In this document: in pieces, positions 52,853 through 57,026 of the stretch
How positions within the stretch are numbered: position 1 is the first letter of the stretch
Layout: every line of letters begins with the position of its first letter
Assembly: GCF_000092905.1 (NCBI RefSeq)
Contig: NC_014098.1
Coordinates: 3,100,001 to 3,164,000 of the forward strand
DNA: 64,000 bases
Direction: 5' to 3'
From: Kyrpidia tusciae DSM 2912
Lineage (GTDB): Bacteria; Bacillota; Bacilli; Kyrpidiales; Kyrpidiaceae
Program-made: the position numbers and the translations under genes
Notes under the pieces: model-generated
The model's input: only the letters and a program-made list of their open reading frames with translations
Told to the model about the DNA's origin: nothing
Databases searched by the model: none

Positions 52853-54259
52853 CTACCCCTCCCCCGCTTCCTCCAGCGCTTTGCGCAGGACATCGGCAAT
52901 CAACCTCACCTCCTCGTCGGTCACCACGAAGGGCGGCGAAATGGTCAAAACGTTGTTGAACCGGGGCACAGTGTCGCTGTTCTTGCCGATGAGCACCCCT
53001 CTCCGCTTGCACCCGGCGATAACCTTGCCGACAAAGTCCGAGGGCGCCGGCTCTTTGGTCGCTTTATCGGCCACCAGCTCAATGCCCGCCATGAAACCGA
53101 AGAACCGCAGGTCGCCGACGTTCGGGTGCGCCGCCAAGGGCTCGAGCGCCTCCCGCAGCCTCTCGCCCAACTCCTCCGCCCGTTTGACGTACTCCCGCTC
53201 ATCCATCAACTCCAGCGTCTTGACGGCCAAAGCGCAGGCGGTGGCGTTGCCGCCGAAGGTGTTCACATGGCGGAAATGGGCATAGGGCTCATCCTCCTTA
53301 AACGCCTCGAAGAGCTCCTCCCGCACCGCCGTGGCCGAAAGGGGCAGATATGCGCTGGTGATGCCTTTCGCCATGGTGACGATGTCCGGCTGCACCCCGT
53401 AGTTCTGGTGGCCGAACCGCCGCCCGGACCGGCCGAATCCACAGATCACCTCGTCGATAATGAGCAAAACCCCGTACTTGTCACAAATCTCCCGCACCCG
53501 GCCGAGATACTCGGGCGGCGGCGCGATGACCCCACCCCCGGTGATGGTCGGTTCCATGATCACCGCGGCCACTGTTTTCGGCTCCTCCCAGTTGATCACC
53601 TGCTCGATGGCGGACGCGCACTCAATCCCGCAGGCCCCGTGGGTCTGCCCGAAGGGACACCGGTAACAATACGGCGGCGGAACGTGCACGAACCCCGGAG
53701 CCAAAGGCTCATAACGATATTTGCGCTGCGCTTGGCCCGTGGCCGCCAGGGCCCCCGCCGAATTCCCATGGTACGCCCGGTATCGGGAGAGGATTTTCCA
53801 CCGGGTGGGCTCCCCCCGCTGGGCGTGATACTGCCTGGCGATTTTAAAAGCCACCTCATTGGCTTCAGACCCGCTGTTCGAGTAAAATACCCGATAATCC
53901 CCGCCCAACCACTCGTTTAATTTTTCACTCAACCGAATGGCCGGCAAGTGACTCTGGGTCAATGGAAAATACGGCATCTCTAGAAGCTGCTGATAGGCCG
54001 CTTCGGCCAACGCCTTCTGGGAATACCCGAGGTTGACGCACCACAGCCCGGACATGGCATCGAGATACCGATTCCCCTCCAGATCCTCCACCCATGCCCC
54101 GTCTCCTTTGACCACCACCATCGGATCCCGGCTGGCCACATAAGGCTGAATATGATGCCACACATACCGCCGATCTTTCTCGATCCACTCCCGGGTCTCC
54201 CTTCCTTCGGGAAGGTTCGGACGTCCCGATGTCTCCCTCAGGGTTTCTTGTTCCAACAT
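52853..54259 (-). CDS. Class III aminotransferase (beta-alanine/omega-amino acid:pyruvate type)
   Basis: This encodes 468 residues from the ATG at 54259, five bases after AAGGAG. YCYRCPFGQTHGACGIECAS is an unusual Cys-rich insert for the family. The PLP site is Asp in LLIIDEVICGFGRSG and the Schiff-base Lys in IVTMAKGITSAYLPL. YSNSGSEANEVAFKIARQYH binds the cofactor phosphate. Beside MmsA and alanine dehydrogenase it fits beta-alanine:pyruvate transaminase, giving malonate semialdehyde and alanine. Confidence 0.93.
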   Translation of the reverse strand: MLEQETLRETSGRPNLPEGRETREWIEKDRRYVWHHIQPYVASRDPMVVVKGDGAWVEDLEGNRYLDAMSGLWCVNLGYSQKALAEAAYQQLLEMPYFPLTQSHLPAIRLSEKLNEWLGGDYRVFYSNSGSEANEVAFKIARQYHAQRGEPTRWKILSRYRAYHGNSAGALAATGQAQRKYRYEPLAPGFVHVPPPYCYRCPFGQTHGACGIECASAIEQVINWEEPKTVAAVIMEPTITGGGVIAPPPEYLGRVREICDKYGVLLIIDEVICGFGRSGRRFGHQNYGVQPDIVTMAKGITSAYLPLSATAVREELFEAFKEDEPYAHFRHVNTFGGNATACALAVKTLELMDEREYVKRAEELGERLREALEPLAAHPNVGDLRFFGFMAGIELVADKATKEPAPSDFVGKVIAGCKRRGVLIGKNSDTVPRFNNVLTISPPFVVTDEEVRLIADVLRKALEEAGEG

Positions 54260-54307
54260 TCCCACTCCTTCTTCCCGGCGTCATACGGCCCGGGTGTTAT
54301 GCACAGC

Positions 54308-54390
54308 TCATCCACATATCCACATTTCAGCTGTGGACAACCGACCTCATATTGTGGACAAACCGCACCCTTATCCACATATTCTCCACA
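54308..54390. promoter_or_regulatory. Cluster of DnaA-box-like sites
   Basis: Within 83 bp there are TCATCCACA (54308-54316), ATATCCACA (54316-54324), TGTGGACAA (54332-54340), TGTGGACAA (54353-54361), the consensus TTATCCACA (54371-54379) and TCTCCACAG (54382-54390). Orientation is mixed. The sites fill the only gap between the alanine dehydrogenase and aminotransferase genes. They could bind DnaA as a titration or regulatory site. No replication genes are nearby. Confidence 0.75.
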
Positions 54391-54426
54391 GCAGGCGCCG
54401 TCACCGCCCGCTGGACACACGGCACA

Positions 54427-55551
54427 CTACACCGCCACAGCGCCTTCCAGCACCCTTCGGGGGTCCGTCCAGGGCAACCCGAACGCCTCCGCCACGCCCC
54501 GACAGGTCACCCGCCCCCGGGCCACGTTCACTCCGCGAAGGAGCGGCCGATCTCCCAGGGCCGCCTTCACCCCGCCTCTGGCCAGCTTCAACACATAGGG
54601 CAACGTCGCCCCCGTCAGGGCAAAGGTCGACGTCCTGGGCACCGCACCGGGCATGTTGGCCACCGCATAATGCACCACCCCGTGCACCGAATATACCGGA
54701 TCATCATGGGTGGTCACCCGGTCCGCCGTCTCCACGCACCCTCCTTGGTCCACCGCCACGTCGACGATCACCGCCCCCGGGCGCATCTCGGCCACCATCT
54801 CCCGGGTGACCAATTTTGGCGCCCGGGCTCCGGGGATGAGCACCGCCCCGATCACCAGATCCGCCATCCTGACCGCCTCGGCCAGGGCATAGGCGCTGGA
54901 CATCACCGTCTTCACCCGGCCCCCGAACAGATCGTCCAGAGCCCGAAGCCGACCGCCGTCAATGTCAAAAATCGTCACATCCGCCCCCAGCCCCGCCGCC
55001 ATCTTCGCCGCCTGGGTGCCTACAGTTCCCCCGCCAACCACCACCACCCGGGCCGGCAACACTCCCGGCACGCCGCCGAGCAGCACTCCGGCACCGCCGT
55101 TTGGCTTCTCCAAAAACCTCGCCCCGACCTGGACCGCCATCCGCCCCGCCACCTCGCTCATGGGAGCGAGCAGGGGCAATCCGCCGCCATCCACCTGGAT
55201 CGTTTCGTAGGCCACCGCCGTCATGCCCGCATCCCGCAGCGCTTCGGTCAGCTCCCGGTCGGCGGCCAGGTGCAGATAGGTAAACAGAATCAGATCTTCT
55301 CGAAAATACCGGTATTCTTCGGGCCGCGGCTCTTTGACCTTGACCACCAGATCGGCGGCCCACGCTTCTTCCGCCGTGCCCAGGCGGCCACCGGCCCGCA
55401 CGTATTCCGCATCGTCAATGCCGCTGCCGACCCCGGCCCCGGATTCCACCACCACCTCGTGCCCGGCGTCCACCAGATCCCGTACCCCCGCCGGCGTCAG
55501 CCCCACCCGAAACTCCCGTTCCTTGATCTCCTTCGGCACCCCTACCCGCAT
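54427..55551 (-). CDS. ald: Alanine dehydrogenase
   Basis: This encodes 374 residues from the ATG at 55551, overlapping the upstream stop (TGATG). A GTG at 55554 is also possible. [20 protein letters not shown] is the family start with the substrate-binding Arg. [10 protein letters not shown] has the catalytic Lys, and [16 protein letters not shown] the catalytic His. [20 protein letters not shown] binds NAD. It oxidises L-alanine to pyruvate and ammonia, which would regenerate the amino acceptor for the transaminase. Confidence 0.95.
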
Positions 55552-57026
55552 CACCGACCGCCTCCGAACCAGCGGGAAGTCACCATTTTCTTCCTTGTGT
55601 AAAATTCCACCCCATCCCGCCCCGTGGCGTGCAGATCGCCATAAAACGAATTTTTCCAGCCGCTGAAAGGGAAGAAGGCCATCGGCACCGGCACCCCGAC
55701 GTTGACGCCGAGCATCCCCGCTTGCACCGTCTCCCGGAACATCCGGGCCGCCGCGCCGCTCTCGGTGTAGATCACCGCCGAGTTCCCGAACCGGGACCGA
55801 TTCACCACCCCGATCGCCTCTTCCAAGCTGTCCGCGCGAATGACGCTCAGCACCGGGGCGAACAATTCTTCCCGAGCCACCGTCATCTCCGGATTCACCC
55901 GATCCAGAATCGTCGGCCCGAGGAAGAACCCCTGGGGCAGCCGCTCCATGGCGTCCCGGCCGTCCCGGGCCATGACCGCCCCTTCCGCCAGCCCCTGATG
56001 AATTCGCTCCACCACCCGGGCCCGGTGTTCGGCGCGAATCAAGGGCCCCAGCTCCACCCCCTCCTCCAGGCCGTTGCCGATCCGCATCCTATCCCCGGCT
56101 TCCACCAAGGCCTCCACCAAGGGGTCACCCACCGATCCCACCGCCACCACCACACTACAGGCCATACAGCGCTGACCCGCCGACCCGAAACCGGAGTTCC
56201 GGATGGCGTGCACCGCCCCTTCGAGATTCGCGTCCGGCATCACGATGTGGTGATTTTTCGCCCCGGCCAAAGCCTGTACCCGTTTCCCCGCGGCCGCCGC
56301 CGTCCGGTACACGTGCTCGGCTACAGGCTGGGAGCCAACAAAAGAAACGGCATCCACCCCGGGGTGCGTCAGGAGGGCGTCCACCACCTCTTTGCCCCCG
56401 TGAACCAGATTGAGCACCCCTTCGGGAATCCCGGCTTCCATGGCCAACTCCACCAATCGCATGGAAGTCAAGGGGGTCCGCTCCGAAGGTTTCAACACAA
56501 AGGCATTCCCCGCCGCCAGGGCGATGGGCATCATCCACATGGGCACCATCATGGGAAAATTAAAGGGCACGATGCCCGCCACGACACCCACGGGGTAGCG
56601 GACCATCTCCATGTCGATCCCCCGGGACACCTGGGGACTTGCGTACCCTTGCATGAGGGTGGGCATCCCGGCCGCGAATTCCACCACTTCAATGCCGCGC
56701 CACACCTCGCCCCGGGCGTCGTCCAGGGTCTTGCCGTTTTCGGTGGTCACCAGGCGGGCCAGCTCCTCCAGCCGCTGGACCAAAAGCTCCCGCCACCGGA
56801 ACATCACCCGGGCCCGCTCCACCACAGGTACTTCCCGCCAGGATTCAAACGCCTCCCGGGCGGCCCGAACCGCCCTGTCCACATCCGCAGCTGTGGACAG
56901 GGGCACCTCTGCCAAAAGCTCCCCGGTGGCCGGATTGGGCACCGGCAAGACTTGATCAGTTTGAGATGCCTGCCACATCCCGCCAATAAAATTTCTGAGC
57001 CGCATCTCCTGAACCGTCGTTCCCAC
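55551..57026 (-). CDS. mmsA: CoA-acylating (methyl)malonate-semialdehyde dehydrogenase
   Basis: This encodes about 491 residues from a GTG at 57026 (AGAGGTGAG upstream). GTG 57035 and ATG 57005 are alternatives. [20 protein letters not shown] and the catalytic Cys in [18 protein letters not shown] are typical. The usual ALDH general-base Glu is absent ([18 protein letters not shown]), a hallmark of MmsA/IolA-type acylating enzymes. It converts malonate semialdehyde with CoA and NAD to acetyl-CoA and CO2. Confidence 0.95.

Follow-up and report, generated by a model that had tools for sequence, protein, structure and literature searches.

In Kyrpidia tusciae DSM 2912, DnaA boxes lie crowded together between a gene for alanine dehydrogenase (ald) and a gene for an aminotransferase, which raises the question of what a dense array of replication-initiator sites is doing in a catabolic operon. 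The first-pass annotation had described six such sites, held that their density was not to be expected inside a catabolic operon, and suggested that they might couple DnaA or replication state to the operon or buffer DnaA. Here the array was analysed within the window, which is the whole 64-kb stretch of DNA at positions 3100001-3164000 of the single 3,384,766-bp contig of the host, and was compared with related genomes and with known DnaA-box clusters.

Composition of the box array

On the minus strand, the gene order is an mmsA-type dehydrogenase (CoA-acylating methylmalonate-semialdehyde dehydrogenase; curated model TIGR01722), ald, the box cluster, a class III (omega) aminotransferase, and a GABA-type amino-acid permease, for which the nearest model is GABA permease with a score under that model's cutoff. 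The cluster is intergenic, between the ald stop and the start of the aminotransferase open reading frame (Table 1), and the curated models bear out the gene context originally claimed for it.

Boxes were defined as 9-mers on either strand with at most one mismatch to the DnaA-box consensus TTATCCACA. Seven of these fall within 94 bp (3154297-3154390 in whole-genome coordinates), and these seven are more than half of the 12 found in the whole 64-kb window. All six TCCACA/TGTGGA sites of the first-pass annotation were found at their places (54311, 54319, 54332 on the minus strand, 54353 on the minus strand, 54374, and 54385), as was the perfect TTATCCACA; the count of six, however, was too low, as a seventh box, TTATGCACA, lies just outside the interval 54308-54390 to which the cluster had been confined. 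From start to start, the seven boxes are spaced by 11-8-16-21-18-11 bp.

Table 1. Genes and DnaA boxes at the ald/aminotransferase locus (positions in the window; Bu79 is a Kyrpidia congener).
Feature	Position	Strand	Sequence	Remarks
Class III omega-aminotransferase (NF005812)	52853..54265	-		Downstream of cluster; open reading frame starts at 54265; ATG at 54259, GGAG before it
Whole DnaA-box cluster	54297..54390	.		94 bp, 7 boxes
Box 1	54297..54305	+	TTATGCACA	Forms first double box with box 2 (2-bp gap); identical in both congeners
Box 2	54308..54316	+	TCATCCACA
Box 3	54316..54324	+	ATATCCACA	One base common to box 2; identical in both congeners
Box 4	54332..54340	-	TTGTCCACA	TTTTCCACA in Bu79
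Box 5	54353..54361	-	TTGTCCACA	Exactly 21 bp from box 4; perfect TTATCCACA in Bu79
Box 6	54371..54379	+	TTATCCACA	Perfect consensus; forms second double box with box 7 (2-bp gap); TTTTGCACA in Bu79
Box 7	54382..54390	+	TTCTCCACA	CCATCCACA in Bu79
ald, alanine dehydrogenase (TIGR00518)	54427..55554	-		Upstream of cluster; stop at 54427

That the array arose by chance or as a repeat artefact without function is scarcely credible. The motif TCCACA is indeed mildly over-represented in the window (54 observed against 34 expected), but 100 first-order Markov sequences of 64 kb with the dinucleotide make-up of the window (6.4 Mb in total) contained a mean of 8.3 boxes per 64 kb and never more than 2 per 100 bp, shuffling the 94-bp cluster 200,000 times gave a maximum of 3 boxes, and in the congener Bu79 the boxes are conserved over the spacers between them.

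Conservation of the box geometry in Kyrpidia

The cluster is present in two congeners, G001 and Kyrpidia Bu79, with box order, orientation and spacing identical to those in the window, and in each of the three genomes the gap within the double boxes 1+2 and 6+7 is exactly 2 bp. In G001, 62 of 62 box bases and 27 of 32 spacer bases are identical to the window. In Bu79, 54 of 62 box bases and 28 of 28 bases of the CACA cores are kept, whereas the spacers match at 10 of 32 positions, which is near random (boxes versus spacers, Fisher p = 7e-8), and the perfect box is found at position 5 instead of position 6. As a yardstick for the divergence of Bu79, its aminotransferase is 86-88% identical to that of the window, the third codon positions of its ald match at 61%, and the intergenic DNA flanking its cluster does not align with the window. 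The ald-aminotransferase gap, 161 bp long in the window, has widened to about 608 bp in Bu79, and the distance from the cluster to the aminotransferase reading frame has risen from 31 bp to about 142 bp; thus, box geometry was kept and gene distance was not. The conservation that the first-pass annotation had asked for was thereby found, with the cluster kept in two congeners against randomised spacers. Because boxes and cores are retained in Bu79 while spacers are near random and gene distances have changed several-fold, comparison of these sequences, which represent only two independent lineages (tusciae/EA-1 and Bu79), indicates that selection acts on the box geometry itself.

A pattern search across the family recovered the core of the cluster in the three Kyrpidia genomes only. 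The sister genus was represented by a single genome (G003 = Bu37), where the aminotransferase gene remains next to ald and the short gap between them contains no boxes; the cluster is therefore not ancient at this site. Among the aminotransferase loci in named genomes, that of Kyrpidia Bu79 alone has a cluster; at none of the other 79, Bacillus loci included, were at least three boxes found within 120 bp.

Position relative to oriC and other box groups

The origin of the host is located at contig position 1, with boxes at 16-330, dnaA (579 bits against TIGR00362) from about 366, and further boxes at 1724-1817; in the dnaA-dnaN gap (1724-1860) boxes are followed by a stretch of 80% AT. The mapping shows that the cluster is outside oriC but near it, about 230 kb to the left (6.8% of the chromosome) on the left replication arm, and in G001 (genome of 3,352,175 bp) it is about 238 kb from the oriC end. 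The boxes of oriC, which include TTATCCACA, TTGTCCACA, TTATGCACA, and CTATCCACA, are of the same types as those of the cluster and comparably dense, whereas box order and spacing differ and an AT-rich region and flanking dnaA are found only at oriC. Use of the same box types at oriC, together with the geometry conserved in congeners, supports the view that the sites are genuine DnaA boxes, as first proposed. In B. inaquosorum (G041), a close relative of B. subtilis, groups of boxes lie to the left of oriC at about 88, 328, and 441 kb and match the published yydA, ywcI/vpr, and ywlC positions (PMC4447404), so the pattern-search approach recovers known clusters.

Other groups of boxes and repeats were also encountered. 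A second conserved DnaA-box cluster outside oriC is located at 2893852-2893930 of the genome (L148:3853-3931), about 491 kb left of oriC, after fliD-fliS-fliT, with counterparts at L149:3555-3689, L150:4891-5009, L161:3727-3897, L182:2119-2248, and L183:2161-2274. This second cluster precedes hpf, the gene for a ribosome hibernation factor, by about 0.1-0.7 kb in G003, G015, and G022; in Kyrpidia, pxp-type genes intervene and the distance to hpf is about 5.8 kb. Of 398 Bacilli genomes sampled, 105 contain tandem boxes TTRTCCACATTATCCACA. Among 40 enlarged tandem-box loci, 12 from several families have these boxes within about 4 kb of hpf (L234, L235, L237, L238, L247, L251, L255, L257, L258, L261, L262, L263), 5 of the 12 having been chosen for known hpf proximity, and one of the 40 is plainly oriC. 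Others, at L224-L233, L236, L240-L244, L246, L248-L250, L252-L254, L256, L259, and L260, have no dnaA/dnaN or hpf within about 6 kb, and many contain 5-9 boxes in about 300 bp. An old DnaA-box cluster linked to hpf or flagellar genes outside B. subtilis seems likely, and a literature search returned no report of one. Eight identical TCCACAGCTTGTGGA inverted repeats, on either strand (107443, 135031, 576648, 899081, 906453, 1094364, 1633146, 2822731), are probably copies of a repeated element. Three TTATCCACA at 1.685 Mb of the genome were set aside, as two of these perfect boxes are inside an IS3-type transposase reading frame (L151:2907-3647), nearly opposite oriC.

Probable titration of DnaA and the rival readings

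B. subtilis provides the closest comparison. Six DnaA-box clusters are located outside oriC beside unrelated genes in this organism (Okumura et al., 2012, cited in PMC5295017), and joint deletion of the six caused early initiation, which was partly cured when one cluster was restored (PMC5295017, PMC13220808). In vitro, DnaA has no stronger sites than oriC and these clusters (PMC4447404). The opinion that such density is not expected in a catabolic operon thus fails as a general rule, as the B. subtilis clusters also stand beside unrelated genes (PMC5295017, PMC4447404). The Kyrpidia cluster resembles them in its dense boxes, its intergenic position, which most of them share, its unrelated neighbours, box consensus, and class of bacteria, and several of them are within about 0.1-0.65 Mb of oriC, a range that includes its own distance. 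It differs from them in the rigid inter-box geometry documented across Kyrpidia species, in its DnaA binding, which is predicted, and in its neighbours, ald and the aminotransferase gene as against ywcI, ywlC, gcp, yydA, trmE, and sda. With these different neighbours, and with no cluster at Bacillus aminotransferase loci, no orthology to a particular B. subtilis cluster was found, and the relation is one of analogy. The two double boxes have the same orientation and the exact 2-bp gap of the double boxes with a 2-3 bp gap that are the preferred in vivo target of DnaA in E. coli (PMC11317965), although here they are embedded within a seven-box array.

On account of the B. subtilis analogy and of the double boxes with a 2-bp gap in three genomes, the element is probably an oriC-proximal DnaA-titration cluster outside oriC that is in the operon incidentally. 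We infer from the sequence that DnaA would bind the 94-bp element cooperatively, with nucleation probably on the double boxes 1+2 and 6+7 at the ends and on the reversed pair 4+5 spaced by 21 bp. Because it is near oriC, the cluster would be duplicated early in each replication round, and each new copy would keep DnaA from oriC, such that re-initiation may be delayed or stabilised. The location in the aminotransferase operon would most likely be merely a permissive intergenic gap. Buffering of DnaA, one of the two roles originally suggested, accordingly stands as a candidate, given the distance from oriC and the conserved geometry, whereas a coupling to the operon is less well supported.

That coupling would require DnaA to act here mainly as a transcription factor, repressing or activating the aminotransferase and permease genes and so linking catabolism to replication state, as may be compared with B. 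subtilis sda, ywcI, and ywlC. The cluster does occupy the gap that lies 5' to the aminotransferase gene, close to the reading frame, and DnaA regulates genes adjoining several of the B. subtilis clusters (PMC4447404), by analogy with which a local effect on transcription could occur. However, a crude scan of 54150-54600 found no sigma-70-type promoter-like match on the minus (coding) strand, the distance to the gene varies between the window and Bu79, ald and the aminotransferase gene follow one another as cistrons on the same strand, and the operon is free of boxes in the sister genus, so that we consider this role rather unlikely. It is very improbable that the cluster is a secondary origin of replication or the remnant of one, derived for example from an integrated plasmid. 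The box density of the cluster resembles that of the upstream part of oriC, but the richest 30-bp window reaches 60% AT as compared with 80% in the dnaA-dnaN gap, the adjacent genes are ald and the aminotransferase gene, with no dnaA, dnaN, or other replication gene next to the cluster, and a syntenic single-strand operon continues on both sides; as no AT-rich unwinding region was found, a secondary origin was rejected.

The fixed geometry bears on a further reading, in which the element, like E. coli DARS or datA, would hold DnaA in a complex that changes its nucleotide or oligomeric state, beyond titration. Fixed spacing would be superfluous in a pure sponge, and its exactness here hints at a complex of a more specific kind; a defined nucleoprotein complex can be argued for because all six inter-box distances, and the orientations, were kept exactly while the spacers were randomised. 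Boxes 1, 2, 6, and 7 also agree in helical phase within 1 bp, and exactly two turns separate boxes 4 and 5; with seven points from two lineages, however, power is low and too little is at hand for a claim on phasing. Like datA, DARS1, and DARS2, the cluster is a non-coding group of DnaA boxes outside oriC; unlike them, it has no known IHF or Fis partner, and the comparison is by sequence, with no homology claimed. B. subtilis is without datA and DARS loci (PMC13220808) and controls DnaA through proteins that act on its cooperative binding (PMC4447404), and no accessory-protein site was identified at the cluster. Remodelling of this kind is quite unlikely. Its bolder form, a geometry-dependent nucleoprotein switch of Bacilli that would remodel or inactivate DnaA on a fixed array in which two double boxes enclose a reversed pair two turns apart, as a Gram-positive functional counterpart of datA/DARS, is likewise unlikely.

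As to what titration by the Kyrpidia cluster would add to this picture, the searchable literature on Gram-positive bacteria reports clusters of DnaA boxes outside oriC essentially from B. subtilis alone, and a search found no study of DnaA sites in Kyrpidia. New are the location and the genus, the kind itself being known from B. subtilis, and what stands out is the fixed geometry. A conserved Kyrpidia cluster beside an unrelated gene, at a similar distance from oriC, suggests that selection acts on origin proximity and not on gene context, which is a prediction of the titration model, and the frozen spacing is a concrete and testable hint that such clusters form a defined complex.
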